Below are positions 624 through 64,000 of a stretch of DNA of 64,000 nt, in pieces. Origin of the DNA: a bacterium (GTDB taxonomy: Bacteria; Patescibacteriota; Saccharimonadia; Saccharimonadales; Saccharimonadaceae); assembly GCA_030530385.1 (NCBI GenBank), contig JAUMVB010000002.1, forward strand, positions 1 through 64,000, written 5' to 3'. How positions within the stretch are numbered: the stretch's first letter is position 1; each line of letters begins with the position of its first letter. Made by a program: the position numbers and the translations under genes. Below the pieces are notes generated by a model. The model ran no database searches, was not told the DNA's origin, and was given only the letters and a program-made list of their open reading frames with translations.

Positions 624-652
624 TTGAAAAAATAATATGCTTATGTTATAAT
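624..652 (+). promoter_or_regulatory. Promoter of the PilB-like gene
   Basis: TTGAAA (624-629), 17 bp and TATAAT (647-652) form a sigma-70-type promoter. The ATG follows seven bases after the -10 box, so the predicted transcript is leaderless. Confidence 0.7.
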
Positions 653-659
653 TTTATTG

Positions 660-1925
660 ATGAAAATTGGTGGGGAAAAAACAAAAAAACAAGGCTACAA
701 AACCGAATCAACGGTTCAATTTACAGCCGAAAAAATTATCGAAAATGCTTTTAACTTACGAGCAACAGATATTCATATTGAACCTCATGAAGACTTTACT
801 TTAGTACGTTTTCGAATTCATGGAACTCTTAAAAACTTCCAAAAGCTACCACAAAATTATGCCAAAAAACTCGCAAAACATTTTAAATTTATCGGAAATT
901 TAGATTTTAGTGAAAAAAACTTTATACAAACCGCATCAATTAAACATGGTAAAGCACGAATCAGGATTTCTATAGTTCCAACATTCCTAGGTGAAAAAAC
1001 TACTTTAAGATTATTATCAACCAAAAGCAGAGTTAGGACTTTACAAGAAATTGGTTTATGGGGTGATAATCTTCGACTAGTTAAGCAAGCCTTAAGACAG
1101 CCTCATGGTATTATTTTTACTATCGGCCAAGGGAAAAATAATACTAATTTTGCCCTATTAAATGAAGTTCTATCAGACGACAAAAACATTGTTACCGTCG
1201 AAAACCACATCGAGAAATCAATTCCTAAGATCAATCAAACAGAAGTTAAATCGCGAATAGGGGTAGATTATTATATTGCAGCAAAAGCTGCTCTAAGCCA
1301 AAATCCAGATATTATTTTAATTGATAATTTACAAGACCTAAAAACAGCTAATTTAATTTTTGAAGCTTCCAGAAGCAAGTTAATTATAGCTTCATTGCCT
1401 GTTAAAAAAAGTAGCGAAGTTATTCCGTATCTTGAATTTCTAGGCATACCAAGTTTTATGATAGCAACAAATATTTTAGCTATCATTAGTCAAACATTAA
1501 TAAGAACGGTCTCCAAAAATGCTATAGAATTTAGAAAAATAAATAAAACTGAATCTAAAGTTCTCCTTAATGAATTCAACACAACCATAAATACAATCCA
1601 TAACCTAGAAAAATTAGCACAAAAAGAATTTAAAAATAAAAAAATACACTCTTCCGCCGAGTCCATTCTAGAAATATCTCAAATAAGAGAAGGTTTAGAA
1701 GAATCAGGATATATAGGTGTTACGGGAATTTTTGAAGTGATTAGCTTAATAAATAATAAACTAGGTAATGAATTACAAAATCTAATAATACACTCAGCGA
1801 GTCCAGTAGAGATAGAAGATTTACTTAAAGATAATAATTTCCCAACCATAAAAATCGATGGCCTAATTAAAAGTCTGCAAGGTCAGACTTCACTCAAAGA
1901 AATTATGCGCCGAACTGGTTATTAA
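660..1925 (+). CDS. Degenerate PilB/GspE-type ATPase, probably catalytically inactive
   Basis: The 421-residue protein aligns by eye with the N2 and ATPase domains of type IV pilus/type II secretion motors. Diagnostic stretches are ATDIHIEPHEDFTLVRFRIHG (in part), GEKTTLRLL and the run beginning PHGIIF. Catalytic motifs are lost. The Walker A position reads TIGQGKNNTNFAL instead of GPTGSGKTTT. The Walker B region reads NPDIILIDNLQD where active enzymes have DPDIIxxGEIRD. No cysteine is visible, so the family's four-Cys zinc element is absent. The N1 domain is also missing. An inactive partner of another PilB, or a scaffold, is the likely role. ATG at 660 is preferred over TTG at 657. The PRC-barrel gene follows 25 bases downstream. 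Confidence 0.75.
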   Translation: MKIGGEKTKKQGYKTESTVQFTAEKIIENAFNLRATDIHIEPHEDFTLVRFRIHGTLKNFQKLPQNYAKKLAKHFKFIGNLDFSEKNFIQTASIKHGKARIRISIVPTFLGEKTTLRLLSTKSRVRTLQEIGLWGDNLRLVKQALRQPHGIIFTIGQGKNNTNFALLNEVLSDDKNIVTVENHIEKSIPKINQTEVKSRIGVDYYIAAKAALSQNPDIILIDNLQDLKTANLIFEASRSKLIIASLPVKKSSEVIPYLEFLGIPSFMIATNILAIISQTLIRTVSKNAIEFRKINKTESKVLLNEFNTTINTIHNLEKLAQKEFKNKKIHSSAESILEISQIREGLEESGYIGVTGIFEVISLINNKLGNELQNLIIHSASPVEIEDLLKDNNFPTIKIDGLIKSLQGQTSLKEIMRRTGY

Positions 1926-1950
1926 TCTATAAAAATGATAAAATATAATT

Positions 1951-2511
1951 ATGCTAATATTAAATTCTAAAATAGCTAAAACACCAGTGATGGGTCTTCA
2001 AACAGGATCACAACTTGCAGTTATTGGCGAGCCAGTCATAAATCCAGCTAACCTTCAAATTATAGCTTATAGCCTAGAAAATAATTCTTACTCCAACGAT
2101 GAAATGTTTATAAGAATTGATGAAATTCGAGAATTATCAAGGCTCGGTTTTATTATTGATTCTGGAGAAGATTTTATATTACCTAATGATGTAATTAAAA
2201 TTAAAGATATTTTAGATTTAGATTTTCACCTAATAGGCATGAAAGTTGTTGATGAAAAAAATAACCATATAGGAAAAGTTGTAGATTTCACTATGAGCCT
2301 ACTAAACTTTTCAGTCCAGCAGATAATTATTAAGCGGCCTTTTTTCAAAAGTATAAATAATCCAGAATTAACAATCCATCGATCACAAATAACTAAAATT
2401 GATGACGAAAAAATTACAATTTATTCAGAAACAGAGGAAAAAATAATCTCTACAACCAAGAAATCAGACAATTATTTTGTACCAAATTACACTAATCCAT
2501 TCAGAAATTAA
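1951..2511 (+). CDS. PRC-barrel domain protein
   Basis: This 186-residue protein has the small beta-barrel pattern of PRC-barrel proteins: an N-terminal unit beginning LQTGSQLAVIGEPVINP and a second one around LIGMKVVDEKNNHIGKVVDF. PRC barrels occur in the 16S rRNA maturation factor RimM and in stand-alone proteins of unclear role. No RimM N-terminal domain is seen, so RimM is not supported. It lies 25 bases after the PilB-like gene. A possible promoter of its own (TAAAAT at 1939-1944, six bases before ATG) has a weak -35 box. The recX gene converges on it with five bases between stop codons. Confidence 0.6.
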   Translation: MLILNSKIAKTPVMGLQTGSQLAVIGEPVINPANLQIIAYSLENNSYSNDEMFIRIDEIRELSRLGFIIDSGEDFILPNDVIKIKDILDLDFHLIGMKVVDEKNNHIGKVVDFTMSLLNFSVQQIIIKRPFFKSINNPELTIHRSQITKIDDEKITIYSETEEKIISTTKKSDNYFVPNYTNPFRN

Positions 2512-19603: not shown

Positions 19604-19645
19604 AATTATACCTCTATTTTATCACAAGCTTAAATTAAAACAAAA

Positions 19646-23470: not shown

Positions 23471-26107
23471 TTTAGTTTTAATATTTGACATGTCGGACGG
23501 TTGAACTCCAACTGTATTACCAACTCGATGGATTTCATCACCAAGATTAGCATTAATTTTGTTGAAAAGTTTTTGGTTGTCATTAATATCTTTGATACTC
23601 TTTTCGAGATTTTTAAGAACATGAGCACCATCAATTTCTTTATATTTACCACTTTTAATGTCGGATAGAATGTTGTTGCTGAGCATGAATTTAACAGCAC
23701 TATCATCCATAGTAGCTAGAGATTCACCGCTAATTTTATTCATAGATTTAGCTAATTCAACCATGGAAGTATCAAAGTCTGTGATTGCCCCAGACGCGAT
23801 CGCATTCTTGAACCCGGCGCCAAGAATTTTAGCGCCATCCTTCTTACCAGACTTATCCCATGCATCAGCGTTGGCTCCACTAATACTTGCTAATTTTTTG
23901 TTAGTCAATGCCTTGAAAGAATCGCCGAAATCAGCTGCTGCGTGCCAATCTTCAGCTACAGCTTCACGCCAAGTGTCGCTAACTTCAAGTTTAAAACCGT
24001 TAACTTTCAATTTTTCACCATCGTTCTTATTTAAGAAAATATCATCACGGTCTTCTTTAGACATTTTAAGATGTTTTGATAGATTACGAAGTGCGGCAAC
24101 TTCATCGTTATGAATTTTCTTTGATTGATCAAAAGCTGCTCCTAGAGCTATACTTCTACCGGTATTTCCACGTTGACCTTCTGATATTGATTGATAATGA
24201 TCATCCGCCTGAAGATTGTTAGCCAGCGAATCAGCAATCATAGCTTTGTTGTTTTGTTCAGCTAATTTATGAGCATTAGCAGTATTCATTGTATCGAATA
24301 TTCGAGTAGCTACCGAACCAAAATTCTTACGTAGATCTTCTGGGTTTGAGATTTTAACTTCACCATCAGTAATTTTAATGCCTTTTTTAAGTTCAGTGAG
24401 AATTTCAGCATTTAGACCGGATATTGCTGCATTTTTACGATTTGTAGAGTTTGCGATTTCTTGCGCTACTAAATTCTCTTGAAATGCGGTGTTATTTTTA
24501 AGAACGGAATTAAGAGCATTAGGATCTGTACCGAGACGCGAAGTAGCCTCTTCAATCTGTTTAGCTTCCATATTGTCGAAACGAGATTGCTGATATTGTT
24601 CGCCAATAGATTTAGCTGAATTAACTCGACGAGAGCGATTGAACTTTACCTGATGAGCCTTAGCTGTTAAGCTATTTGGATTATCTCTAATTTTTTGGTT
24701 AGTTCTAATATCCATTTGGTCTTTGAGGAATTTTTTAGAAGTATCGATTGGTCCTTTATTAGGATTATTAATCATGCCGGCAAACTTGCCTAGTAGATTT
24801 CCGCTTAGTTTCATGATCGTTGGTGTAATTGCGAGTGGTACAACTTGAACGACCATCCCTAAAATTAAGGTTACGATATTACCATTAGCGTTAGCAATAA
24901 TCGCAATTCCTGCTAATTGCGAGCCGCCAAAAAGTAAGGCGATAAGTGGATACATTACTAGCATTGTAGTGAATAAATCTTTCCATTTATCGAACCATTT
25001 TTCAGTATTTGGCCAAATATTAGCAACAAAAGCTAAAGGCGCTAAGAATATTAAAACAGTAATAATTGCTTGGCGAGCAGCTAAAATTACAACTGCTACA
25101 AAAACTGAATATAAGACAATTAAGAGTACGAACATCATCATTAAGCCAAGATTTTGCGGGCCTCCCGCAAGAACAAAACTCCATACACCCATAGTTATGG
25201 CTCCAGCTCCACTCAATATACCAACTACTAGACTTTTCCAGGAGAGAGCTTCAATTTGAATACCGGAACCGCTTTCAAAGATATCTTTTCGAACTCCAAC
25301 TAATAAATCTTGCAGTCTAACTCCTAAAATATTTGATAAATCAACCGCTAGTGCGCATATATAATAAGAAACGTTAATTAGAATTGCTGCAATAATTAAT
25401 TTCGGAAGCATTTTTTTAATGCCATAATTTGAGATGCCGACATTAGTGATTTGAGAATAAATTATTAAAATAAAAACAATCACGAAGAAAATATTCGCAA
25501 TATTGCGCATATAGTCCCAAACTCGATAAAGACCGGACTTGTCTGATGTTTGGAGTGGTTGAACTTTAAGGAAATCACTTACAATATTGTAAAGCCCATC
25601 CATTGCTCCAGCTAAAGTATTAGAAATCATACAAACTGCCCATCCGCCACCGCCTTCAATTGCGCAAGAAGTTTCGGATTTAGTTGGGTCTGTTTCGCTT
25701 ATCCCTTGACCAGTAATTGATTCGGTTTGACCTTCTTGTTTATAATTACCGGTAACTGATACTTTAAATTTATAAAGTTTACCTTCTATTTTGTCTGAAT
25801 CGGTTGACTTAACTGAAATAACTTCAGCGGTTTGCTCACCACCAGCTGTAGCTTGAGAAGTATTAATAAAAGCTGTGCCCCCTTGTGTATCTTTTGGTAA
25901 TCTAGAGGTATCAGTAGTCTTGGTAAATGTTTTTTGGTTATAGACTATAGCATTTTTATATGAATTTGCCCATTTTGCGCCTTCTAGAGCAAAAGTTCGG
26001 GTAAAATTAAAAATTCCCAGCGTTATTGCTGAAATAATAGATGCTATCAAGAAAACATTTATTCTTCGTCGAGAAATTTTCCTCAAATTTTCCACGATTG
26101 TTATCAT
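23465..26107 (-). CDS. VirB6/TrbL-like polytopic membrane protein
   Basis: The protein (880 residues from ATG at 26107) has a signal-anchor (VFLIASIISAITLGIF) and roughly seven further hydrophobic segments between residues 200 and 460. Examples are IFFVIVFILIIYSQI and LGLMMMFVLLIVLYSVFVAV. A long polar, helical C-terminal half of about 400 residues follows, probably cytoplasmic. This is the layout of VirB6/TrbL channel components in Gram-positive-type secretion systems. The upstream ATG at 26125 is rejected because the -10 box overlaps it. The gene is divergent from the VirB2-like cluster and upstream of PrgI-TraC-VirB4. Confidence 0.75.
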   Translation of the reverse strand: MITIVENLRKISRRRINVFLIASIISAITLGIFNFTRTFALEGAKWANSYKNAIVYNQKTFTKTTDTSRLPKDTQGGTAFINTSQATAGGEQTAEVISVKSTDSDKIEGKLYKFKVSVTGNYKQEGQTESITGQGISETDPTKSETSCAIEGGGGWAVCMISNTLAGAMDGLYNIVSDFLKVQPLQTSDKSGLYRVWDYMRNIANIFFVIVFILIIYSQITNVGISNYGIKKMLPKLIIAAILINVSYYICALAVDLSNILGVRLQDLLVGVRKDIFESGSGIQIEALSWKSLVVGILSGAGAITMGVWSFVLAGGPQNLGLMMMFVLLIVLYSVFVAVVILAARQAIITVLIFLAPLAFVANIWPNTEKWFDKWKDLFTTMLVMYPLIALLFGGSQLAGIAIIANANGNIVTLILGMVVQVVPLAITPTIMKLSGNLLGKFAGMINNPNKGPIDTSKKFLKDQMDIRTNQKIRDNPNSLTAKAHQVKFNRSRRVNSAKSIGEQYQQSRFDNMEAKQIEEATSRLGTDPNALNSVLKNNTAFQENLVAQEIANSTNRKNAAISGLNAEILTELKKGIKITDGEVKISNPEDLRKNFGSVATRIFDTMNTANAHKLAEQNNKAMIADSLANNLQADDHYQSISEGQRGNTGRSIALGAAFDQSKKIHNDEVAALRNLSKHLKMSKEDRDDIFLNKNDGEKLKVNGFKLEVSDTWREAVAEDWHAAADFGDSFKALTNKKLASISGANADAWDKSGKKDGAKILGAGFKNAIASGAITDFDTSMVELAKSMNKISGESLATMDDSAVKFMLSNNILSDIKSGKYKEIDGAHVLKNLEKSIKDINDNQKLFNKINANLGDEIHRVGNTVGVQPSDMSNIKTKK

Positions 26108-26115
26108 ATGTGTTA

Positions 26116-26144
26116 ATTTTAGCATAAATAACTATTTTTGTCAA
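26116..26144 (-). promoter_or_regulatory. Promoter of the VirB6-like gene
   Basis: TTGACA (26144-26139), 17 bp and TAAAAT (26121-26116) on the minus strand end eight bases before the ATG at 26107. It lies back to back with the promoter of the plus-strand VirB2-like cluster. Confidence 0.72.
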
Positions 26145-33875: not shown

Positions 33876-33881
33876 CCAAGT

Positions 33882-34355: not shown

Positions 34356-34384
34356 TTGCTAAAAACTAACTAAAAATATATAAT
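34356..34384 (+). promoter_or_regulatory. Promoter of the ABC exporter operon
   Basis: TTGCTA (34356-34361), 17 bp and TATAAT (34379-34384) lie six bases before the ATG at 34391. Confidence 0.68.
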
Positions 34385-34390
34385 ATAATT

Positions 34391-39690: not shown

Positions 39691-39719
39691 TCTTTGATTA
39701 TAGCACTATTCACTTTCTT

Positions 39720-39748
39720 TTGCGAATTTATTATGCTTGTGTTATAAT
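39720..39748 (+). promoter_or_regulatory. Promoter of the membrane protein gene at 39,755
   Basis: TTGCGA (39720-39725), 17 bp and TATAAT (39743-39748) lie six bases before the ATG. The transcript should be leaderless. Confidence 0.68.
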
Positions 39749-39754
39749 TAAGCT

Positions 39755-40728: not shown

Positions 40729-43320
40729 TTAAAGTGCTTCCCAGCTCTTGCCAATTTTAACATCGACTTTGAGCGGAATATCAAGTTCGGGGCAAACTTG
40801 CTCCATAATTTCACGCAAAATTTTACTGACTTGCTCAGCATTTTCGATTGGGGCTTCAATTAAGATTGAATCATGAATTTGTAGAATTTGTTCGCCAAGA
40901 CCGGCTCGAGTTATTTTTTTATCAACCTCAATCATGGCTCGCTTCATTAAATCGGCCTCTGTTCCCTGAATTGGCATATTAGCAGCAGCTCGTTTGGCAG
41001 CTTCTCGGATCATGAAATTACTTGATTTTACATCTGGAGTCGGACGCCGTCGACCAAGTAAAGTTTCGACGAAACCTTGCTCTTCAGCCTGTTTGATAGT
41101 CTTATTTATGAAATTTTGAATGGGTTTTCGAACTTCAAAATAATTATCAATAAAACTTTTGGCCTCAGCAAAATTAATTTTAAGTTCGCTAGCTAGCCGG
41201 TGAGCGCTCATTCCATATAACACGCCAAAATTAATCACTTTAGCTGCGCGACGTTGTTCGGTGGAGATTTCATTCTCTGGTAAATTAAACATCATTGCTG
41301 CAGTTTTAAGGTGAATATCAGCACCAGAACGAAAATCTTCAATTAATTTTTGATCGCCAGCCATAACAGCAGCGAGGCGCAGTTCAAACTGTGAGTAGTC
41401 AGCCGCAATTAAGATATTTCCCTCTTTTGGGACGAATCCAGCTCGGAGTTTGCGACCTAGCTCACTGCGGATTGGGATATTTTGTAAATTTGGATTCGTA
41501 GAACTTAACCGACCGGTACTCGTGACATCTTGATGAAAAGTTGAATGGATGCGATTTTGCTCGTCTGCTAGTTTTGGTAGTGTATCGATATAAGTGTTTT
41601 TTAATTTTGAAAACTCGCGGAATTGCTCAATTTTTTCAATAATTGAATGGAGACCTCTTAGTTTATCGAGTTCTTTTTGGCCTGTTGAGAAACCAGTGCG
41701 AGATTTTTTAATTCCTTTGGTTGGCAAAGCTAGATTCTCGAACAAGACTTTAGAAAGCTGTAGCGGACTAGCTACGTTAAATGTTGTGCCGGCTAGTTCA
41801 AAAATTTCAGTTTCAATTTTGGCAATTTTTTCACCAAAAATCTGGCTTTCCTCCGCAAAGAAATCTGGATTGATTTCAACACCAGTCCGCTCCATTTTAA
41901 ATATAACTGACGCCATAGGGAAATCTAGATTTTTGGCAATCTTGCGAATTTTAGGTAGATTTTCTAACTGTTTTTGATGGCGATTATAAATGTAAATCAT
42001 CGCTCTCAAACATTCAATTGGGTCTTTTTCATTGATTTCTTGTTCTAAGATTCCGCTCAGGCTTTTATCTCGTATTAGCGGATTTAGCAAAAACTCCATC
42101 TGGCGAAGATCATAAAATTTATCCGTTTGGCTATAAAAAATTCCATTTTCTGACATATCGTGAAGGTGCTGTTTAATATCAAATAGAATTATTTCATCAT
42201 GCAAAAAGTTTTGTTCTAGATCCGTAACGCTATACTCTGAAATTTCGTAAAATCCATACTGTTCATTATTTGCGTAATAAATTTTATTTTCATAATTTAT
42301 GATAAATAGTCTATCTGATTGAGCTAAAAAATTAGCCATATTATCGTGGGTGTGAAGATTTAGTTCTGGTAATAGATTGTTAGATTTTTGTGACTCTAAA
42401 TTCTCGAAAAGATTGGTTTGATCTGGATTTTCTGGAGTGTTTGTGCCTTGTTTCATCTCGGCGGGAATTTTTCGTACTAGCGAATTAAACTCAAATTCTC
42501 GCAATTTTACAAGTACTTTTTGGTAGTCAAAATTATGAATATCGGCGTCTTTAAGATTTAGCTCAACTGGCGCATTGAGCCAAATCTCAGCAATTTTTTT
42601 GCTCATAAAAGCTGATTCTTTACCGGCTTCAAGTTTAGATCGCCAAGATGGTTTTATCTTATCGAGATTTTTGTAGATATTTTCAAGTGTAAAAAACTCT
42701 TGAAGCAGCGTAGTGGCGGTTTTAGGGCCAATACCAGGAACTCCAGGGATATTATCGCTTGAATCACCTTGAAGAGCTTTTAGGTCTAGGAACTGTGCTT
42801 GCTTTAGACCATATTTTTCTTCAAAATATTTTAGATCAAACTCTTCAATCTCCGAAAATCCGCGTTTCATAGCGAAAACTTTCGTGTCTGAATCGATCAA
42901 CTGAAGCATATCAAGATCGCTAGTAATTAAATCCGCCTCAATACCAAGCTTATTGGCTTGAACTGCAAGTGTGCCAAGAATATCATCCGCCTCGTAACCA
43001 TCGCATTCGAAAAGTGGCCAGCCAAGCGCTTCGAGAAAATCTTTCAACAGCGGAATTTGCTCGTAGAAATCATCTGGTGCTTTTTTTCGCCCAGCTTTAT
43101 ATTCTGGATAGATTTCGCTCCGTCGTGCGGTTGAAGTTCCTTTTTTATCCCATGCCACTACTACATAATCAGGCTTTAATTTACGGATTACTTCAAAAGC
43201 TAAGCTCGCAAAACCATAAACCCCACCAGTCGGCGTTCCATCAGTAGTTGTGAGATTACTCATTGCATAATAACCTCTATAAAAAACACTTTTTCCGTCA
43301 ATAATTACTAGCTTTTTCAT
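40729..43320 (-). CDS. polA: DNA polymerase I with inactive proofreading domain
   Basis: PolA fills gaps and removes primers. The 863 residues have a complete 5'-nuclease domain (LVIIDGKSVFYRGYYAM, ECDGYEADDILGTLA, QGDSSDNIPGVPGIGPKTA). The polymerase domain has motif A DYSQFELRLAAVMAGD, motif B RRAAKVINFGVLYG and motif C QIHDSILIEAP. The middle 3'-5' exonuclease domain is present in outline (about 330-460), but the DxE metal motif is missing; INYENKIYY stands at that place. The -10 box is seven bases from the ATG, so the mRNA is probably leaderless. Confidence 0.97.
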   Translation of the reverse strand: MKKLVIIDGKSVFYRGYYAMSNLTTTDGTPTGGVYGFASLAFEVIRKLKPDYVVVAWDKKGTSTARRSEIYPEYKAGRKKAPDDFYEQIPLLKDFLEALGWPLFECDGYEADDILGTLAVQANKLGIEADLITSDLDMLQLIDSDTKVFAMKRGFSEIEEFDLKYFEEKYGLKQAQFLDLKALQGDSSDNIPGVPGIGPKTATTLLQEFFTLENIYKNLDKIKPSWRSKLEAGKESAFMSKKIAEIWLNAPVELNLKDADIHNFDYQKVLVKLREFEFNSLVRKIPAEMKQGTNTPENPDQTNLFENLESQKSNNLLPELNLHTHDNMANFLAQSDRLFIINYENKIYYANNEQYGFYEISEYSVTDLEQNFLHDEIILFDIKQHLHDMSENGIFYSQTDKFYDLRQMEFLLNPLIRDKSLSGILEQEINEKDPIECLRAMIYIYNRHQKQLENLPKIRKIAKNLDFPMASVIFKMERTGVEINPDFFAEESQIFGEKIAKIETEIFELAGTTFNVASPLQLSKVLFENLALPTKGIKKSRTGFSTGQKELDKLRGLHSIIEKIEQFREFSKLKNTYIDTLPKLADEQNRIHSTFHQDVTSTGRLSSTNPNLQNIPIRSELGRKLRAGFVPKEGNILIAADYSQFELRLAAVMAGDQKLIEDFRSGADIHLKTAAMMFNLPENEISTEQRRAAKVINFGVLYGMSAHRLASELKINFAEAKSFIDNYFEVRKPIQNFINKTIKQAEEQGFVETLLGRRRPTPDVKSSNFMIREAAKRAAANMPIQGTEADLMKRAMIEVDKKITRAGLGEQILQIHDSILIEAPIENAEQVSKILREIMEQVCPELDIPLKVDVKIGKSWEAL

Positions 43321-43411
43321 TATTATAATTATATCATATTTAGGCGTTTATATTGTTTTACGCTGTGAGCAAAAATGCAGGAATACCTTATGATATGTTA
43401 TAATTAAACTT

Positions 43412-44014
43412 ATGAATAGACAAATCTTACGCCTAAAAAATAAAAAGCAAAAACCAAATTCGGTTAAAATATTGGCATTTGTCGGCATGAGCGGCTCGGG
43501 TAAAAGCACGGCAGTAGAGTTTGTTAAGCAAAAAGGCTTTCCGCATGTTTATTTTGGGGGCGTGATTCTTCAGGCTTTACGTGACGCTAATCTTGAAATT
43601 AACGAAAAAAATGAAAAAATGATGCGCGAGAAGCTGCGGCAAGATTTTGGTAAGGATGTGGTGGTTAATAGAATGATTGAACAGATGGAGAATTTAATCA
43701 ATGCCGGACAGAGGCGAATTTTAGCGGACGGCATTTATAGTTGGACAGAATATAAAATTCTCAAAAAACGCTTCCCTAAAGAGTTGAAAGTTATCGCACT
43801 AGTGCCGCCAAAAAGCGAGCGCTATAAGCGAATTAGTGGTCGAAGTGAGCGACCTTTGACACAAGAAGAAACTGTGACGCGCGACTGGGCTGAAGTTGAA
43901 AACCTTGAAAAAGGTGGTCCGATCGCCATGGCGGACTATTTTATTGTGAATCGTGGGTCAGTATTTGAAACGCGCCGTAAAATTGCGAAAATTCTGCGCG
44001 AGATTGAGTTTTAG
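43412..44014 (+). CDS. P-loop kinase related to dephospho-CoA kinase
   Basis: The 200-residue protein has Walker A FVGMSGSGKSTAVEF near residue 27 and a lid region (RYKRISGRSERPLTQEE). It has the DxxE/W segment RDWAEVENLEKGGPIAMADY and ends with VNRGSVFETRRKIAKIL. CoaE-like kinases phosphorylate dephospho-CoA, and polA-coaE linkage is common in bacteria. The N-terminal RQILRLKNKKQKPNSVK extension is basic. Sequence divergence leaves nucleoside kinase or nucleotide monophosphate kinase as alternatives. A TATAAT lies seven bases before the ATG. Confidence 0.7.
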   Translation: MNRQILRLKNKKQKPNSVKILAFVGMSGSGKSTAVEFVKQKGFPHVYFGGVILQALRDANLEINEKNEKMMREKLRQDFGKDVVVNRMIEQMENLINAGQRRILADGIYSWTEYKILKKRFPKELKVIALVPPKSERYKRISGRSERPLTQEETVTRDWAEVENLEKGGPIAMADYFIVNRGSVFETRRKIAKILREIEF

Positions 44015-44472: not shown

Positions 44473-44482
44473 CCGTATCTAT

Positions 44483-44517: not shown

Positions 44518-46194
44518 TTACATTCTCTCTGGAGTGTCTATTCCTAGAAGACTCAAACCTTCAGCAAGAGTGTCGCGATATCGCGCTACTAATGCAAGGC
44601 GTAGTTCTTCGCGATCATCGCCAATAACACGATTTTGTTCATAAAAGCGATTGAACTCTTGTGCTAGCTCATAGAGATAGCGACAAATACCATGCACCAT
44701 ATACTCGCTTGCTGCTTTGGCGACCACACCAGGGAATTCACTTAGCTTTTGAAGTAGCTTGCGTTCAGACTCTGTAGTGTTTAGTTCAGTTGAAGGAGTT
44801 TTACTACTTTTCGACAAAATACTACAGGCTCGCGCATGAGCGTATTGAATATATGTGCCGGAGTTTCCATGAAGGTTAACAGTTTCTTCGATATCGAAAG
44901 CAATATCTCCACCTAGGCGGTATTTTACAAAAGCATACTTAATTGCGCCTAAAGCAATTTGGTTTGTTAGTTTTTGATCGTCTTTGGCTAGTTCACTAGC
45001 TCGAACTTTAATTTCATCTAAAACATCAACTGCACGTGAAACATTGCCTAATCTAGAACTCATTTTTTTACCATCAGAAAAACGAACCGTACCGTTGGTT
45101 AGGTGAGTCATCTTTGCGCCGATTCCAGGTTTAAAGGTGTCTGCGGCAGCGTAAACTACACGCATGTATTCTTTTTGGTCGTTACCAGTCATTAGGATTC
45201 GATGATCGAAGTTATAATCAGCGATTTCTTTCCATATAACGCCGATATCCTTAGTTTCGTAAGTTGGCAAACCGTTCGATGTTACAAATACGCGGGTGTG
45301 CAGATTTTTACTTTCATCACCCTTGAAGACAATTGCGCCTTCACTTCTCTCTAATTTTCCTGCTTTAAGTTGTTCGGCGATGACACTCATTCCGGTTGGC
45401 GCGGTAGAGCTTTCTGGATAGTAATGCATGCGGTCGACTTCAATTAAGTCATAGAACGCGTCGAAATAGTCAAAACTCCACTGGCGAGTTTCCCAGTATA
45501 TTTTTGCCATTGGCGAAGTGGTATCATTTTGTTCATGAAAACCATAAATAGCTTTGTTCAGATCGATAATTTCTTGCTTGGCGATTTCGTCTTCTTCGTA
45601 AGCTTTAGCGCCAATGACATAAGTTTTACCTATCCATTTAGCTCGCTCAAAAGCGTTATTTTCAACCTCTTGAAGCCGGTCTGGGTTTTCGCCGCCAAGT
45701 TCTTGGCGCATCCCCCAAAGACATTTAGCGACATGCAAGCCAACATCACCACCAAAACTAGTGCGATTAACTTTTGCGCCAGCTGCCTCTAGGACTCGCG
45801 CTAGAACATCACCATAAATTGTCTGGTAAAGATGTCCTGTGTGTAAATCCTTAAAAGCATTTGGGCACGAATATTCAAGCACATAGACTTGATCTTTGAA
45901 TACTTGATCTGGTTGTGAATTAGCTAGCTCCCAGAGTGATTTATCGCTAATCTTAAGATTAATAAAACCGGGGCCTGCAATTTCGACATTTTCAAATAAA
46001 GGGTTTTTTTCTAATTCATTACATAATATTTCGGCTATTTCACGCGGATTTTTGCCAAGCTTGCCAGCAAGTTGCATTGCTGTATTAGTTGCGAAATCAC
46101 CAAATTCTGGCCGAGGCCGAGTCAAATTTACCTCAATCTCTTGGTTGAATTGCTGTAAAATGATTTGTTGGATAATTTCTGCTACTTTATTCAT
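44518..46194 (-). CDS. argS: Arginyl-tRNA synthetase
   Basis: A class I synthetase that charges tRNA(Arg). From ATG at 46194 it has 558 residues. It has an N-terminal tRNA-recognition domain, the HIGH-type motif LHTGHLYQTIYGDVLARVL with HTGH, and the segment SDGKKMSSRLGN carrying the KMSK-type motif. A DALR-type anticodon domain is at the end (YELAQEFNRFYEQNRVI). The longer start at 46230 is rejected because the -10 box TAAAAT lies seven bases before ATG 46194. Confidence 0.97.
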   Translation of the reverse strand: MNKVAEIIQQIILQQFNQEIEVNLTRPRPEFGDFATNTAMQLAGKLGKNPREIAEILCNELEKNPLFENVEIAGPGFINLKISDKSLWELANSQPDQVFKDQVYVLEYSCPNAFKDLHTGHLYQTIYGDVLARVLEAAGAKVNRTSFGGDVGLHVAKCLWGMRQELGGENPDRLQEVENNAFERAKWIGKTYVIGAKAYEEDEIAKQEIIDLNKAIYGFHEQNDTTSPMAKIYWETRQWSFDYFDAFYDLIEVDRMHYYPESSTAPTGMSVIAEQLKAGKLERSEGAIVFKGDESKNLHTRVFVTSNGLPTYETKDIGVIWKEIADYNFDHRILMTGNDQKEYMRVVYAAADTFKPGIGAKMTHLTNGTVRFSDGKKMSSRLGNVSRAVDVLDEIKVRASELAKDDQKLTNQIALGAIKYAFVKYRLGGDIAFDIEETVNLHGNSGTYIQYAHARACSILSKSSKTPSTELNTTESERKLLQKLSEFPGVVAKAASEYMVHGICRYLYELAQEFNRFYEQNRVIGDDREELRLALVARYRDTLAEGLSLLGIDTPERM

Positions 46195-46201
46195 AAGAGA
46201 T

Positions 46202-46230
46202 ATTTTAGCATATTTTGTTATTTTTAGCAA
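46202..46230 (-). promoter_or_regulatory. argS promoter
   Basis: TTGCTA (46230-46225), 17 bp and TAAAAT (46207-46202) on the minus strand, with TATGC before the -10 box. The ATG is seven bases away. Confidence 0.7.
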
Positions 46231-48760: not shown

Positions 48761-49027
48761 TTATTTTCGAAGTCCTAATTTAGAAACAACAGCTTTATAG
48801 GCTTCAAAATCTTTTCGTTCAAGATATTTTAGAAGTTTTTTACGGCGACCAACCATTTGTATCAAACCGCGTCGAGCCATGAAGTCGTGCTTATTTGATT
48901 TAAGGTGTTCCGTCACTTCTTTGATACGAGCCGTCAAGATTGACACTTGCGCCTGTGGCGAACCAACGTCATTCTTTGAAACCTGAGTCAAAGCGATTGC
49001 CTTCTCTTTATTCTCTTTAGTAATCAT
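48761..49027 (-). CDS. rpsO: 30S ribosomal protein S15
   Basis: From ATG at 49027 the protein has 88 residues, the standard S15 length. It shows GSPQAQVSILTARIKEVTEHL (in part), the DFMARRGLIQMVGRRKKLL core and the final YLERKDFEAYKAVVSKLGLR. S15 binds 16S rRNA in the platform. The 12-codon extension to 49063 is rejected: it overlaps the promoter, and the -10 box lies seven bases before the chosen ATG. Confidence 0.97.
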   Translation of the reverse strand: MITKENKEKAIALTQVSKNDVGSPQAQVSILTARIKEVTEHLKSNKHDFMARRGLIQMVGRRKKLLKYLERKDFEAYKAVVSKLGLRK

Positions 49028-49034
49028 CTTTAAA

Positions 49035-49063
49035 ATTTTATCATTTTTTAAGATTTTAGTCAA
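49035..49063 (-). promoter_or_regulatory. rpsO promoter
   Basis: TTGACT (49063-49058), 17 bp and TAAAAT (49040-49035) end seven bases before the ATG, giving a leaderless transcript. Confidence 0.72.
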
Positions 49064-49859: not shown

Positions 49860-50309
49860 TCAGATATCGGTTGGCGCAACACCATTAGCTCCGCTGGAGC
49901 CAGTAGAGTTGATTCCGCCGCCGCTCGTAGTGAAACTAGAAACGACGAAATTCACAATCGCGTAGGACATTATAGCTACAATCAAACCAATAATTGCGTA
50001 TAGGATTGTATTTTTGGCGGCTTCAACTTTTTTAGAGTCGCCATTCGAGATTATGTAGCGTAGTCCGCCAAAGATAAGCATAATTATACTTAGAATACCT
50101 ACCGCGAATAACATCACGCTCACGATTCGAGTAAAAATTCCGGTATTTCCAAAAATAGTAGTTGGCATTTCGCTAGTTTTGCCTTGTTGTAGTCCACTAT
50201 GGAGTCCGCCATCAAAAATATTGGCTGCCAAAACGGGGGCTTGAGCCATAACGGCAACTATGCTTGAGATAACTAAACCTGAGATCAAATAATTTGATAA
50301 TTTCTTCAT
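49860..50309 (-). CDS. VirB2-like two-helix protein 7, distant from the cluster
   Basis: From ATG at 50309 the precursor has 149 residues: a signal peptide (LISGLVISSIVAVMAQAPVLA), then FGNTGIFTRIVSVMLFAVG, the loop SNGDSKKVEAAK, helix 2 (ILYAIIGLIVAIMSYAIVNF) and a Gly/Ser-rich tail. It is closest to copy 6 at 28,273, sharing the FG(D/N)TGIFT motif. It lies 21 kb from the secretion cluster on the other strand and has a perfect consensus promoter. It is probably an abundant pilin-like subunit, perhaps an alternative to copy 6. Confidence 0.72.
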   Translation of the reverse strand: MKKLSNYLISGLVISSIVAVMAQAPVLAANIFDGGLHSGLQQGKTSEMPTTIFGNTGIFTRIVSVMLFAVGILSIIMLIFGGLRYIISNGDSKKVEAAKNTILYAIIGLIVAIMSYAIVNFVVSSFTTSGGGINSTGSSGANGVAPTDI

Positions 50310-50318
50310 GATGATTGT

Positions 50319-50347
50319 ATTATACCAAAAATATTGATTTTTGTCAA
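50319..50347 (-). promoter_or_regulatory. Consensus promoter of VirB2-like gene 7
   Basis: TTGACA (50347-50342), exactly 17 bp and TATAAT (50324-50319): both boxes and the spacing are ideal. The ATG lies nine bases after the -10 box. Confidence 0.82.
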
Positions 50348-53730: not shown

Positions 53731-54159
53731 TTAGAATCGATAGTTTTTGGTTATATCCTTAAGAAATGGCACGACGCTTGAAAAATAAGCTAGGGTTGCT
53801 ATTGCTACATTTACGATAAAAATAATAAGCGCAATTTGAGCGATAGTTTTAGCTTTAGACCTAGCGCCAGTTTCCAGCTCAAACTGGTTTCCGGCTTTAA
53901 TTGCTTTATAAGCGAAAAATCCCACCAGCAACACTAATGGCTGTAAAAATATCCCTAATACTGCACAGACGATTGCAGTTTGGGCTGATGATAAGTCTTC
54001 GTTGGCAATTTTTGCTGCTCGTTCTGCTTTGAAATTTTCTTCTATTCGGCGATTGTGATGATCTTCATCGGAAAGAATTTCCGCTCGGTCATAAGAATTA
54101 CCGGTATTTTTAACTTCAGGATAAATATCGCTAGGGTCAAATTGTTTATGGTTGTCCAT
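53731..54159 (-). CDS. Two-helix membrane protein of unknown function
   Basis: The 142 residues have a polar, charged N-terminus of about 55 residues. Two membrane helices follow (AIVCAVLGIFLQPLVLLVGFF and IALIIFIVNVAIATLAYF), joined by a short charged loop (KAIKAGNQFELETGARSK). This resembles the DUF4190-like small membrane protein pattern. A TATACT lies six bases before the ATG, without a clear ribosome-binding site. Confidence 0.55.
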   Translation of the reverse strand: MDNHKQFDPSDIYPEVKNTGNSYDRAEILSDEDHHNRRIEENFKAERAAKIANEDLSSAQTAIVCAVLGIFLQPLVLLVGFFAYKAIKAGNQFELETGARSKAKTIAQIALIIFIVNVAIATLAYFSSVVPFLKDITKNYRF

Positions 54160-54228
54160 AAGGTTAGTATAGCAACAGTTATATAAAAAATAAAGTTAAG
54201 AATACAGTTTTGCAAAACATGTTTCAAA

Positions 54229-54257
54229 TTGAAAATAATCGTTAAAAGTGTTAGAAT
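54229..54257 (+). promoter_or_regulatory. tsaD promoter
   Basis: TTGAAA (54229-54234), 17 bp and TAGAAT (54252-54257) lie six bases before the ATG. Confidence 0.72.
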
Positions 54258-54263
54258 CATTAT

Positions 54264-55352
54264 ATGAAAATTTTGGGAATTGAGAGTACGTGTGATGAAA
54301 CCGCAGCTGCAGTAGTAGAACTTCAAGCTGGAGAAGTTTCACGCGTGAGCAATAACCATGTAAAATTACTTTCAAGTGTAGTTCATTCGCAGATTAATAT
54401 CCATGCTCAATTTGGAGGTGTAATTCCTGAAGTAGCGGCGCGATCGCACATCGAATATATAAATCCAGTTGTTCGTCAAGCTTTAGAAAAAGCTGAGACG
54501 GGATGGAACGAGATTGATGGTATTGCAGTTAGTTTTGCGCCTGGCTTAAATGGTTCTTTATTGGTTGGTAATTTAGCCGCGCGAACTTACGCGAGGATTT
54601 TTAATAAACCTTTCTTCCCTGTTCATCACGTCGAAGCTCATGTTTATGTTAATTATTTAAGCGAACACCCACCTCGGTTTCCTTTTTTGGCGCTTGTAGT
54701 TAGTGGAGGACACTCGCAGATAGTTCTGTTTAAAGGTCATTCTGATTTTGAAATTTTAGGTGAAACACAAGATGATGCTGTTGGTGAAGCGTTTGATAAA
54801 GTGGCTAAAATTCTTGGTTTGCCATATCCTGGTGGTCCATCGATTTCATCAGCGGCCAAAAATGGTGACGATTTAAAATATAAATTTCCTAAAGCGAAAC
54901 TTTCTGGAGAATATGATTTTAGTTTCTCGGGTTTAAAAACAGCTGTATTGCGCGCAGTTCAAAAAGAAGTTGGAGTTGATTATAACTTCCCTTCTTTCCG
55001 TTTGGCCGAAAAGTTAACCGAACAACAAAAAAATGACTTTGCGGCATCTTTCCAAAAAATTGCTGTAGAAACGCTGGTTGATAAGCTTGAAAAAGCTACT
55101 AAAAAATACCAGCCTACTACTGTTGTGGTTGCTGGTGGTGTAGCGGCAAATGAGGTATTACGTGAAGAATTACTACATAGAATAGCGAATATAGTCCCAG
55201 ATGAGATTATTTTTACTCCGCCGGAATTTTGTACCGATAATGCTGCAATGGTTGCGACGTTGGGAGCTTTTCATGCTGTGTTAGGTCAGCCCCAAGGCCC
55301 GCTTGATGCGGAGGTTAGTCCTAGTTTATCGATGAACGATGCGCGTTGGTAA
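54264..55352 (+). CDS. tsaD: tRNA N6-adenosine threonylcarbamoyltransferase
   Basis: TsaD transfers the threonylcarbamoyl group to A37 of tRNAs reading ANN codons. The 362 residues include GIESTCDETAAAVV, the metal-binding HHVEAHVYVNYL, LVVSGGHSQIVLF, DDAVGEAFDKVAKILGLPYPG (in part) and VVAGGVAANEVLREEL. The length is slightly above the usual 340. No TsaB or TsaE gene is in the window. Confidence 0.97.
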   Translation: MKILGIESTCDETAAAVVELQAGEVSRVSNNHVKLLSSVVHSQINIHAQFGGVIPEVAARSHIEYINPVVRQALEKAETGWNEIDGIAVSFAPGLNGSLLVGNLAARTYARIFNKPFFPVHHVEAHVYVNYLSEHPPRFPFLALVVSGGHSQIVLFKGHSDFEILGETQDDAVGEAFDKVAKILGLPYPGGPSISSAAKNGDDLKYKFPKAKLSGEYDFSFSGLKTAVLRAVQKEVGVDYNFPSFRLAEKLTEQQKNDFAASFQKIAVETLVDKLEKATKKYQPTTVVVAGGVAANEVLREELLHRIANIVPDEIIFTPPEFCTDNAAMVATLGAFHAVLGQPQGPLDAEVSPSLSMNDARW

Positions 55353-55437: not shown

Positions 55438-56553
55438 CTAACGACTTTTAATTGTGCGGATAATCTTTTTGAAAGTTGGTAATCCGTGAGACCATAGCCA
55501 ATACCAGCCTGATAGTGGTTTATCGAAAGTCCCAGCGAGCATATTTTCGTGATGGGCGAATTTACTTTTGAATTTAGAAATGCCGTCATTTAGCAGTCCG
55601 TTCATGTCGTAGCGTTCTATCCCGGCATTTTTCATTTGTATTAAAACAAGCCATTTCAAGATGTAGTTAGCGCGAGTAGATCTACCCAGTTCATTGCTGC
55701 CGCCGTAGAGCTCGAAAGCTGTTTTTTGAGATTTGGCAATCCAGCTGAAACCAACTAGTTCTTCTCTGTCGTGAATTTTTTCAAGCTGGGTTAAATTTTG
55801 TTTAGTTTCTTCTCTTCTATCTCGAGATTTTTGGGTTGAGTTTTTAACAAAAGCTCCGTAAATTGGAGCATTATCGCCCATTAGCTCAAATAACTTTTGG
55901 TAGTATTTTCGACTATGGATTGCAAAACCAGCTCGTTGAGCAGTCTCTTCATATATATCGAGCGCGGTCTCTAGTTCTGCTGGTGTTTTGATCTGGCGAA
56001 CAGTAGCTTTTTCGGATGATTTTCGGACGATTTGGCGATTATTTTTTGTCATATCAGCCATAAGTTTTTCTTCGCTCTGAGTTAAATCCAAGATTAAAGT
56101 TCGAGGAATTAGAATAGTGTTTTTTGCTCTCTTCCAACCTTTTTCAAGGAGTTCTTTGCCTGAAAATTCTCGCTCTTCCCAGTCTGGTTCAATAGATAAC
56201 GCTACTGGCTGTGGCTTAATTTCCCTTTGGCAATATTCGGCGATAAAATTAAGAATTTTTGCTCGTTCCTGAGGTTTTTTAGAAATAATTACAGCTCCGC
56301 GCGGAATATACGCAAAACTTCGGAGCGGCCAAGGCAATTTTCGAATTAGAATCTGAGCAGCCGCCACAACGTCGGAGTATTTCTCTTTCTTTTTTGGCTC
56401 TTCGCTGACATTTTTAATAAAGATTCGGACTACTTTCCAAGTTGGGCTTTGCGCTTTCAATTCGCCCCACCCCCACATTTGTAAAGGGTGTCCATATTTA
56501 AAAACAAAACCATCCCATTCATCTTTTTTAGTAATTTCTACAATCTTTAGCAT
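55438..56553 (-). CDS. FemABX-type peptidyltransferase
   Basis: FemX-family enzymes use aminoacyl-tRNA to add amino acids to the peptidoglycan stem peptide. From ATG at 56553 the protein has 371 residues. It shows the paired GNAT-like folds and family segments GHPLQMWGWGELKAQSPTWK, LDLTQSEEKLMADMTKNNRQ, IYEETAQRAGFAIHS, FELYGGSNE and NYILKWLVLIQMKNAG. With the MurE-like ligase this points to a cross-linked or decorated cell wall. A TATAAT lies six bases before ATG 56553, which is why the longer start is rejected. Confidence 0.88.
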   Translation of the reverse strand: MLKIVEITKKDEWDGFVFKYGHPLQMWGWGELKAQSPTWKVVRIFIKNVSEEPKKKEKYSDVVAAAQILIRKLPWPLRSFAYIPRGAVIISKKPQERAKILNFIAEYCQREIKPQPVALSIEPDWEEREFSGKELLEKGWKRAKNTILIPRTLILDLTQSEEKLMADMTKNNRQIVRKSSEKATVRQIKTPAELETALDIYEETAQRAGFAIHSRKYYQKLFELMGDNAPIYGAFVKNSTQKSRDRREETKQNLTQLEKIHDREELVGFSWIAKSQKTAFELYGGSNELGRSTRANYILKWLVLIQMKNAGIERYDMNGLLNDGISKFKSKFAHHENMLAGTFDKPLSGWYWLWSHGLPTFKKIIRTIKSR

Positions 56554-56630
56554 AAGTCTATTATACACTAAAAAAGTATGATATAATAGAATAGAAAATA
56601 AAAACAAGAAATTAGTTTTTGTAGGAGGTA

Positions 56631-60473: not shown

Positions 60474-60501
60474 TTGATAAAAATCTTTTATTTGCTAAAA
60501 T
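60474..60501 (+). promoter_or_regulatory. orn promoter
   Basis: TTGATA (60474-60479), 16 bp and TAAAAT (60496-60501) lie six bases before the ATG, directly after the preceding terminator. Confidence 0.65.
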
Positions 60502-60507
60502 GGAATC

Positions 60508-61056
60508 ATGAAAAACGCAAAAATCTTATGGATTGATTTAGAGATGACGGGGCTTAGTCCGCAAAAAGATCGGATTTTGGAAATTGCAGCAATTGCGACA
60601 GACTGGGATTTTAATGAGATTGCAACTTTTGAGAGTTCGGTTAAGGTAGATGAAGAAGTTGTAGAAGATCGGATGGTGGGAGAATTTTGGGAGACCTTCA
60701 GCGAGACTCGTGATGCTTTGAAGGTGCAAAATCTACAAGCTACCAAAAATTCATTAGAGGTCGAAGCTGAGTTGATTGAATTTATTAAAGAAAACTTTGT
60801 CGAAGAAATTGCGAACGGTGAAAAAATTCTTCTTGGCGGAAACTCAATTCATCAAGATAGAAGATTTATCCGTAGTGAATGGCTTAATTTAGAAAAAATG
60901 CTTCATTATCGGATGCTTGATGTGAGCGCCTGGAAGGTAGTGATGAGTGCAAAGTTCAAGCGTGTTTTTGCAAAACCAGATAATCATCGTGCGTTGGATG
61001 ATATTCGTGGATCGATTGAAGAGTTAAAATTTTATTTGAAGAAAGTGAAGAAATAA
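60508..61056 (+). CDS. orn: Oligoribonuclease
   Basis: Orn degrades two- to five-base RNA fragments left by other nucleases. The 182 residues carry the DEDDh exonuclease motifs: DLEMTGL near residue 11, NSIHQDRRFI near 113 and HRALDDIRGSIEEL near 158. The length is typical. It may take over the nanoRNase role that the degenerate DHH protein near truB has lost. The next gene begins right after the stop codon (TAAATG). Confidence 0.94.
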   Translation: MKNAKILWIDLEMTGLSPQKDRILEIAAIATDWDFNEIATFESSVKVDEEVVEDRMVGEFWETFSETRDALKVQNLQATKNSLEVEAELIEFIKENFVEEIANGEKILLGGNSIHQDRRFIRSEWLNLEKMLHYRMLDVSAWKVVMSAKFKRVFAKPDNHRALDDIRGSIEELKFYLKKVKK

Positions 61057-62414: not shown

Positions 62415-62448
62415 CTAAAATTTTGCGCTATAAAAATTATTCATAAAA

Positions 62449-62477
62449 TTGCTTAGACCTAAAAAATATTGTAAAAT
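62449..62477 (+). promoter_or_regulatory. dnaG promoter
   Basis: TTGCTT (62449-62454), 17 bp and TAAAAT (62472-62477) lie six bases before the ATG. Confidence 0.7.
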
Positions 62478-62483
62478 AGAACC

Positions 62484-64000
62484 ATGAATAATGGCGCAAT
62501 GGAAGAGATAAAAGCTCGCATAAATATCGAAGATTTAGCGAGCGAATATTTGGAACTGCGCCGAGCTGGGCGAAATTTTAAAGCGCTCAGCCCCTGGACA
62601 AATGAGAGAACACCTAGTTTTATTGTTAGTCCTGAAAAACAGATCTGGCATGACTTCTCGAGTGGTAAAGGCGGCGATATTTTTGGATTTATTATGGAGG
62701 TTGAAGGCCTGACTTTTCGTGAAGCGTTGGAGTTTTTAGCACGCAAAGCTGGTATCGAGCTTCAGCAATTTGATAATATACGCGCCAAGCAAATTGCACA
62801 AAAGAAAAAACGACTTTACGAAGTGTTGCGAGTTAGTGCAAATTTTTACCAACATTTTTTAGTTCGCGATAAAACGGCTTTAGAATACGTTTTTCAAAAA
62901 CGCAGACTTAGTAAAGAGATTGTTCAAGAATTTAAAATTGGTTACGCGCCAAAAGGTCAACGGACGCTAGTAGATTTTTTACAAAAAAAAGGGTTTACAC
63001 TGGACGAAATTCGTGATGTCGGTATGACTAATCGATTTGGTGGTGATATTTTTCGCGATCGAATGGTGATTGCACTTCAGGATATCAGTGGTGCACCGGT
63101 TGGTTTTACTGGCAGATTGTTGGCCGAATCTGATAACGCGCCAAAATATCTTAACACACCGCAGACTTTGCTTTATGATAAGTCAAATAATGTTTTTGGT
63201 TTATCGCAAGCTAAGAATGAGATTCGTAAAGCTGGTTTTGCTGTGGTGGTCGAAGGAAATATGGATGTAATTTCTAGCCATCAGGCGGGTGTTAAAAATG
63301 TTGTGGCTACGGCAGGTACCGCGATCACTACGCGCCATTTAAAAACGATTGCTCGGTTTAGTAATGATATCCGCCTCTGTTTTGATGCCGATGCGGCCGG
63401 TATCAATGCTACCGAGAGGGCAATTAGATTGGCGCAAGAAGTTGGTGTTGAACTTTCAATTATTGCACTTAATCAAGCTAGTAACGATGCGAAAGATCCA
63501 GACGAATTAATCCAAGTTGATTCAAATCTTTGGCGTGAATCTATTTCTCGGCCGAAGCCGGCAGTCGAGTGGGTTTTTGATCAGTATGAAAAGCGACTGG
63601 ATATTTCTACGGCTAGTGGTAAGCGGCAGTTTTCTAATATTGCGCTTAAGCTAGTTAAAAATTTAAGTGATCCAGTCGAGAAAGAATTTTATCTTGATGA
63701 AATTGCCCGTCGAATTAAAACTTCACGCGAATCTTTACTGGCAAAGTTTTCATCAGACAAACAGCCTGTTAAACTTAAGCATATAAAAGCCGAAAAAACA
63801 GAAGTGGTAAAAGACGATTTTGTTTATGAAGATGACCTGTTGGCGCTAATTTTGGCTGAAGAGAAATTTGCAGCCAAAATTGTTAACTTGCCGAAAAACC
63901 CACTTCACGGCGAAAACCGAAATCAAATTTTCGAAATTATTCGCAATAATGATCGCGAGAAGTTGAAAAAATTTGAGAATTATGTTAAAATCCTTCTATT
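62484..64000 (+). CDS. dnaG: DNA primase DnaG lacking the zinc ligands, 3' end outside the window
   Basis: DnaG makes RNA primers at the replication fork. About 505 residues are visible. The N-terminal domain keeps the primase fold (EERTPSF-type segment NERTPSFIVSPEKQIWHDF; SSGKGGDIFGFIM). However, the four zinc-binding residues of the CHC2 ribbon are replaced: CPFH reads SPWT, and the second pair, normally in HCFGCG, reads HDFSSG. The TOPRIM core is intact (VVVEGNMDVISSHQAG, GTAITTRHL, LCFDADAAGI). It probably binds template in a zinc-free way. The frame runs off the window edge. Confidence 0.93.
   Translation, partial: MNNGAMEEIKARINIEDLASEYLELRRAGRNFKALSPWTNERTPSFIVSPEKQIWHDFSSGKGGDIFGFIMEVEGLTFREALEFLARKAGIELQQFDNIRAKQIAQKKKRLYEVLRVSANFYQHFLVRDKTALEYVFQKRRLSKEIVQEFKIGYAPKGQRTLVDFLQKKGFTLDEIRDVGMTNRFGGDIFRDRMVIALQDISGAPVGFTGRLLAESDNAPKYLNTPQTLLYDKSNNVFGLSQAKNEIRKAGFAVVVEGNMDVISSHQAGVKNVVATAGTAITTRHLKTIARFSNDIRLCFDADAAGINATERAIRLAQEVGVELSIIALNQASNDAKDPDELIQVDSNLWRESISRPKPAVEWVFDQYEKRLDISTASGKRQFSNIALKLVKNLSDPVEKEFYLDEIARRIKTSRESLLAKFSSDKQPVKLKHIKAEKTEVVKDDFVYEDDLLALILAEEKFAAKIVNLPKNPLHGENRNQIFEIIRNNDREKLKKFENYVKILL

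Follow-up and report, generated by a model that had tools for sequence, protein, structure and literature searches.

Sigma-70-type promoters placed directly ahead of start codons suggest leaderless first genes in a Saccharimonadaceae genome

Introduction

Leaderless genes of the "TA-led" class are already known. The available portion of Zheng et al. 2011 (PMC3160421), which treats RefSeq 2010 genomes, describes TA-led leaderless genes in which the hexamer TANNNT, located about 10–12 bp before the start codon, is taken as the -10 box of the promoter. It reports more than 20% leaderless genes in Actinobacteria and Deinococcus-Thermus, holds that leaderless genes can occupy only the proximal position in a transcript and finds that genes of common descent change their initiation mechanism. 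Here, genes that appear to belong to this class are described in Saccharibacteria and, less firmly, in other Patescibacteria. The starting point is a stretch of 64,000 nucleotides from a member of the Saccharimonadaceae (GenBank assembly GCA_030530385.1, contig JAUMVB010000002.1, positions 1 to 64,000 of the forward strand), called the window below, in which an initial annotation had pointed to a uniform promoter layout with the -10 box only a few bases ahead of the ATG.

For Deinococcus-Thermus, the accessible text of PMC12340547 (2025) presents TANNNT at a particular, short spacing ahead of the open reading frame (ORF), tested experimentally; the motif is found on about 30% of ORFs on average, addition of a -35 box raised transcription, and symbiotic and not clearly classified species were excluded from the survey. 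The StartLink study (PMC9581028), in its available part, tested Archaea, Actinobacteria, Enterobacterales and the FCB group and names neither Saccharibacteria nor Patescibacteria. Nakagawa et al. 2017 (PMC5397173) surveyed 14 bacterial phyla, with no mention of Saccharibacteria or TM7 in the main text as available, and the corresponding text of PMC3160421 mentions neither these two names nor "candidate division". In the obtainable parts of PMC7441243 and PMC6851277 the word "leaderless" is present in the title of a reference, and in those of PMC12641178 it is used in a comment on YchF and again in a reference; those of PMC9723584, PMC10582724 and PMC6851277 contain nothing on Shine-Dalgarno (SD) use in the Candidate Phyla Radiation (CPR). 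Neither a study of leaderless genes in Saccharibacteria, Patescibacteria, CPR or TM7 nor mapped transcription starts for Saccharibacteria were found in the open-licence literature.

The genes in our genome are similar to the TA-led genes, as these are portrayed in the available text of Zheng et al., in the position of the box, in the front-of-operon rule and in the change of class between related genes, but here an extended -10 box (TGn ahead of the hexamer) and a TTG -35 box at 17 bp are prominent. The TANNNT layout is shared with Deinococcus-Thermus, to judge from the accessible part of PMC12340547. Mixed use of leaderless and SD initiation is common to our genome and those of StartLink/GeneMarkS-2, as far as the available text describes them. 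The layout is thus documented in a poorly studied lineage with a tiny genome, its mechanism having been established in other bacteria.

Materials and methods

The assembly consists of 628,076 bases in 14 contigs, is an estimated 92% complete and contains the 64-kb window; genome-level counts cover stretches totalling 225,640 bases (225.6 kb), or 36% of the genome. Starts were chosen by coding statistics only, with promoters ignored, which gave 205 genes. Genes that are divergent from their upstream neighbour, or separated by at least 40 nt from an upstream gene on the same strand, were called first-like (n = 137), and those that follow a gene on their own strand at a distance below 40 nt close-following (n = 58); the ten genes at the edges of the stretches are without context. 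Spacing is the number of bases between the end of the -10 box and the ATG.

Class assignment was by expectation-maximisation (EM) with refinement of starts, seeded with an extended -10 box and AGGAGG, and genes with a spacing of at most 9 were counted as leaderless-type (61 genes). E. coli (82 first-like genes) and D. radiodurans MP1 (78 first-like genes; the positive control) were put through the same pipeline, and 993 in-frame ATGs inside genes formed the internal background. Four genomes of the same genus (G001–G004) were compared, two of which (G003 and G004) supplied the upstream regions of orthologs.

Results and discussion

A -10 box at a fixed distance from the start codon

Among the 205 genes, the box TAnAAT is present at spacing 6 in 23 genes, at spacing 7 in 15 and at spacing 8 in 2, and is absent at spacings 4 and 5. 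The peak that the initial annotation had suggested as a genome-wide test is present and sharp, at spacing 6–7, within the part of the genome analysed. The same box precedes 6 of the 993 internal ATGs at this distance. By context, it is found at spacing 6–7 in 21 of the 56 divergent genes, in 16 of the 81 with a same-strand gap of at least 40 nt and in one of the 58 that follow more closely. With the looser hexamer TAnnnT, 44 first-like genes are observed against 15.5 expected (Poisson p 2e-9), versus 2 against 2.9 expected for the close-following genes. E. coli first-like genes show no such peak (2 observed, 3.9 expected), while those of D. radiodurans MP1 do (11 observed, 1.0 expected). In a motif-free positional search of all hexamers ahead of the 137 first-like genes, TATAAT at spacing 6 is the strongest signal (12 observed, 0.49 expected), ranking above AAGGAG at spacing 4. 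A secondary peak of TANNNT at spacings 11–12 was considered as a second promoter class and rejected, as it fits the TATGnT of the extended -10 box.

All 16 starts listed by the initial annotation are ATG codons preceded by TAnnnT, at a spacing of 6 (nine starts), 7 (six) or 8 (one). Its statement that a TTG-type -35 box is usual also holds, with TTG at 17 bp in ten of the 16 and at 16 bp in one. The extended -10 box, present in 12 of the 16, had gone unmentioned, and three leaderless-type starts were missing from the list: 39690 on the minus strand, which is the divergent partner of 39755, 1951 on the plus strand and 50309 on the minus strand. The features of the window are collected in Table 1.

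Table 1. Leaderless-type promoter layouts in the window (elements in 5' to 3' order; the last distance is the spacing to the ATG)
Feature	Coordinates	Strand	Layout and remarks
T2SSE ATPase (Pfam), ATG 660	624..662	+	-35 TTGAAA, 17 bp, extended -10 TGTTATAAT, 7 nt
PRC-barrel protein, ATG 1951	1936..1953	+	TAAAAT, 6 nt; upstream gene 25 nt away; box equally spaced in G003
dnaA	10340..10377	+	TTGTGG, 17 bp, TAGAAT, 6 nt, ATG; equal spacing in 5/5 genus genomes
Gene with ATG 26107	26105..26144	-	TTGACA, 17 bp, TGCTAAAAT, 8 nt; no Pfam match; start unalignable with G003
HIT-domain gene, ATG 32835	32819..32837	+	TGCTAAAAT, 7 nt; without TTG -35
rlmH, ATG 33882	33847..33884	+	TTGAAA, 17 bp, TGCTAGAAT, 6 nt
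ABC ATPase, ATG 34391	34356..34393	+	TTGCTA, 17 bp, TATAAT, 6 nt
Back-to-back pair 39690(-)/39755(+)	39688..39757	both	both leaderless-type; starts 64 bp apart
Back-to-back pair polA 43320(-)/43412(+)	43318..43414	both	both leaderless-type; starts 91 bp apart; both without TTG -35
argS, ATG 46194	46192..46230	-	TTGCTA, 17 bp, TGCTAAAAT, 7 nt
rpsO, ATG 49027	49025..49063	-	TTGACT, 17 bp, TGATAAAAT, 7 nt
T4SS pilin-like gene, ATG 50309	50307..50347	-	TTGACA, 17 bp, TATAAT, 9 nt; equal spacing in G003
Back-to-back pair 54159(-)/tsaD 54264(+)	54157..54266	both	both leaderless-type; starts 104 bp apart
FemAB-family gene, ATG 56553	56551..56568	-	TATAAT, 6 nt; without TTG -35
RNase_T exonuclease gene (orn in the initial annotation), ATG 60508	60474..60510	+	TTGATA, 16 bp, TGCTAAAAT, 6 nt
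dnaG, ATG 62484	62449..62486	+	TTGCTT, 17 bp, TAAAAT, 6 nt

The boxes as promoters

When 56 genes are aligned on their box, TTG is found 17 bp upstream in 23, 16 bp upstream in 4 and 18 bp upstream in none, and at any other distance from 8 to 33 bp in at most 4; the -35 box played no part in the selection of these genes. The final motifs of the EM procedure are ataTG.TAtAAT and aGGaga, while three runs on shuffled data, seeded identically, lost the -10 consensus. These patterns support the view that the boxes behave as sigma-70-type promoters with an extended -10 box, TATGnTAnAAT, and a TTG -35 box at 17 bp. The composition differs from that of the positive control: among first-like genes with TAnnnT at spacing 6–7, the TG extension is present in 34 of 44 and TTG at 17 bp in 19 of 44, compared with none and one, respectively, of the 11 in the D. 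radiodurans MP1 sample.

The A/T-rich stretch ahead of these genes might alternatively be a signal for translation, through S1 binding, low structure or an A/T-rich non-SD site like that proposed for the FCB group. The upstream regions of this genome are indeed A/T-rich, the genome encodes an ORF with four S1 domains, and in Patescibacteria poor in SD motifs the same hexamer is enriched before close-following genes too, with no clear -35 box. Against this, TA...T is alone among the eight A/T patterns shaped WW...W in exceeding 1.5-fold enrichment ahead of the first-like genes of this genome (2.84-fold; the next reaches 1.49-fold). The box is also preceded by TG, one base away, and by TTG at a distance of exactly 17 bp, and TA...T is not enriched before the close-following genes. 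A translation signal in place of a promoter is therefore quite improbable in this genome.

The distance from a -10 box to the first transcribed base is usually 6–7 nt. With the sigma-70-type promoters at a spacing of 6, RNA polymerase would start on the A of the ATG, and at a spacing of 7–9 from zero to three bases upstream of it. The initial annotation had placed transcription starts at the ATG or within two bases; as an inference from promoter position this is supported, with a range of now about three bases, and a start at the ATG or within about three bases of it is most likely. At such distances there would be no room for an SD site. Transcription starts prefer a pyrimidine at -1 and an A at +1. 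T occupies the position directly ahead of the ATG in 71% of the 51 leaderless-type genes of spacing 6–7, versus 32% of the 118 SD-class genes (p = 5e-6), an excess that would follow from a +1 at the A of the ATG.

Very probably, then, these are sigma-70-type promoters fused to the start codon, which yield leaderless or near-leaderless first genes, with SD leaders elsewhere. The first gene of a transcription unit would be made from such an mRNA and translated without SD contact, while most close-following genes, along with another group of first genes, would use ordinary SD leaders. The 5' ends themselves, the borders of operons and the mode of ribosomal initiation are what we infer from this arrangement.

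Two classes of genes in one genome

The 195 non-edge genes comprise 61 leaderless-type and 118 SD-class genes, consistent with the two translation classes proposed by the initial annotation. The genes it had named as examples with SD leaders (28273, 59611, 60068, recA at 4405 on the minus strand and rpsT at 53359 on the plus strand) are all in the SD class. The SD site reported at 44420 is also present, the minus-strand ATG being preceded by AAGGAGG; a Pfam comparison at E 1e-4 gave no match for the ORF there (44055–44510).

Which class a gene belongs to is predicted by its place in the transcription unit: EM places 58 of the 137 first-like genes in the leaderless-type class, against 3 of the 58 close-following genes (p = 6e-8). 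Such a bias would follow if leaderless genes were confined to the front of an mRNA. In nine of the eleven divergent pairs in which both genes are leaderless-type, the starts are 37–107 bp apart, and this layout can therefore fit two promoters into a very short piece of DNA; in the 37-bp pair, either the promoters must overlap or one start call is wrong.

The initial annotation had further suggested that the classes broadly separate housekeeping from accessory genes, as might be thought from dnaA, polA, argS, rpsO, tsaD and dnaG, all leaderless-type, and from the five of seven T4SS_pilin-like window genes that are in the SD class. The division is not supported. By our own sorting of Pfam matches (spacing of at most 10; dnaG, cut by the window edge, excluded), the leaderless-type class takes in 10 of the 20 first-like window genes with housekeeping functions and 10 of the 23 others (Fisher p = 0.76). 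The SD class includes aspS, valS, recA, dnaN, pnp and rpsT, the leaderless-type class includes the pilin-like gene 50309 and 54159 (function unknown), and the class of dnaA differs outside the genus. A functional split is thus very improbable.

Conservation within the genus

In G003, all 14 comparable leaderless-type genes have an ortholog with TAnnnT at 5–9 nt, 11 of them with identical spacing, versus 1 of 21 orthologs of other genes; genes whose start could not be aligned, including the leaderless-type genes 26107 and 26215, had been removed from this count. In G004, TAnnnT is kept in two of two leaderless-type orthologs versus 1 of 11 others. Twelve ortholog pairs from the two genomes retain a spacing of 6 or 7. 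In these, five of the six positions of the -10 box are 92–100% identical and the third is 67% identical; the TG is 92–100% identical and the three TTG positions 100, 83 and 67%. Identity falls to 17–58% in the central part of the spacer; in the A/T-rich stretch right before the TG it is 67–83%. Conservation thus stands, with the grammar, position, specificity and gene-order dependence of the promoter, among the properties read directly from the alignments and counts.

The promoters could be real and the starts miscalled, so that translation would begin at a downstream ATG behind an SD site, on an mRNA with a normal leader. The start calls are computational, the model shifted 9 of 69 leaderless-type starts, and 26107 and 26215 fail to align with G003 at the start. 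Set against this, the spacing peak is already present in the promoter-blind start calls, and of the 16 leaderless-type genes of the window that have a G003 match, 14 align at the N-terminus from residue 1. Moreover, Pfam domains start at residues 2–7 in RlmH, PolA, DnaA, ArgS, RpsO, Orn and DnaG, leaving little room for a later start codon. Systematic miscalling is hardly credible.

Several points weigh against leaderless initiation from start-codon promoters or blur its extent. Besides the two unalignable starts (2 of 16), about half of the 56 aligned genes are without TTG at 16–17 bp, as are 5 of the 16 promoters of the initial annotation (32835, 43412, 43320, 54159 and 56553). A spacing of 8–9 in 10 of the 61 genes would give leaders of about 1–3 nt, not zero; for the pilin-like gene 50309 about 2–3 nt would be expected. 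SD 4-mers are found in none of the 61 leaderless-type and in 92 of the 118 SD-class genes, an absence that is partly built in, as the classifier makes the classes compete. EM also gave leaderless-type calls to eight genes at spacings 10–12 (572, 19603, 61539 and five more); these are doubtful and do not count among the 61. One of them, 19603, carries an SD-like AGAGG, and its relative in G004 shows a GAGG leader. Shuffled upstream regions gave L weights of 0.46–0.52 with no real motif, for which reason the EM mixture weights, unusable alone as a measure of the leaderless fraction, are not counted as evidence. The size of the class is uncertain and depends on method: EM assigns to it 42% of first-like genes (58 of 137) with no correction for chance, and the chance-subtracted excess of TAnnnT at 6–7 amounts to 21%. 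For any single gene, a promoter further upstream may also be in use. Even so, in about one-fifth to two-fifths of first-like genes the mRNA probably begins at the start codon itself.

The closest relatives found for the DnaA protein are from the metagenome-assembled genome "bacterium isolate S12M_Sa_37" (78% identity) and nine Candidatus Saccharibacteria loci (45–52%), on which basis the organism is regarded as a member of the Saccharibacteria (TM7, Patescibacteria); comparison with plasmid records was uninformative. The box ahead of dnaA is present in five of five genus genomes, versus 2 of the 22 dnaA loci with clear starts outside the genus (among L021–L050, three loci with unclear starts being left out). 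An SD-like 4-mer is found in 18 of these 22, including one of the two box-bearing loci (L027), which is therefore doubtful. The initiation class thus appears able to switch, and dnaA seems to have changed class outside the genus.

Translation machinery

The initiation factor IF3 is present in this genome and in 115 of the 117 genomes of the phylum sample, and a 357-residue ORF contains the four S1 domains mentioned above. No 16S rRNA match was found in the assembly itself or in G003. In the congeners G001, G002 and G004, the anti-SD sequence CCTCC is intact at the 3' end of the 16S rRNA; the congener tails read ACCTCCTTTCT and the Saccharibacteria tail is GGATTACCTCC. Taken together, these components provide the machinery for both initiation modes.

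Other Patescibacteria

Of 28 other Patescibacteria genomes sampled, 27 have TAnnnT at spacing 6–7 above expectation before their first-like genes, the excess not being significant in each. In other relatives among the Saccharibacteria, from family to class, the -35 box is visible and weaker (TTG at 17 bp in 9 of 73); in Patescibacteria outside the Saccharibacteria it is unconvincing (6 of 101).

Five genomes, G087, G093, G058, G128 and G034 (loci L105–L107, L117–L122, L134–L139 and L167–L186), are SD-poor: SD-like 4-mers are at or below background, except in the first-like genes of G058 (5 versus 2.5), and G087 has an SD-like motif in none of its 93 non-edge genes. Their 16S tails carry CCTCC. 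Before the 246 close-following genes of the five genomes, TA...T is found 46 times versus 11.0 expected; the enrichment is clear in G128, G058 and G034, weak in G087 (3 versus 0.6) and absent in G093 (4 versus 3.8). This signal may represent promoters or another A/T signal. Because of it, and because of the weak TTG -35 box outside the Saccharibacteria, a phylum-wide claim for promoters was dropped.

It is possible, but rather doubtful, that Patescibacteria as a whole use leaderless initiation as a main mode and that per-gene leaderless promoters replace SD-dependent translation of operons in some lineages, where SD use fell to or below background despite an intact anti-SD and closely packed genes carry their own -10 box beside the ATG. 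Should the signal prove general in the phylum, a large lineage that is unnamed in the available texts of the surveys would be added to comparisons between SD and leaderless initiation, and how the SD-poor members translate closely packed genes would become testable. For Saccharibacteria, the layout predicts how these small bacteria initiate translation, and the -10 box should be useful for the choice of start codons in annotation.

Other features of the window

The window region 26215–28692 contains six tandem genes that match the T4SS_pilin family, the first one below the family cut-off. Beside this cluster, at 15041–23383, TraG-like, PrgI-like, lysozyme and M23 peptidase genes are located. 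On the minus strand, the 45 bases preceding the pnp start at 32661 (region 32661–32730) are nearly identical in G003 and partly kept in G004; this stretch may be coding, with a GTG further upstream at 32730, or may act as a regulatory leader. An Rfam scan of the window gave five tRNAs and no other match. Four of these five are tRNA-Ser genes (at 30103, 38214, 50392 and 59370), with four different anticodons.

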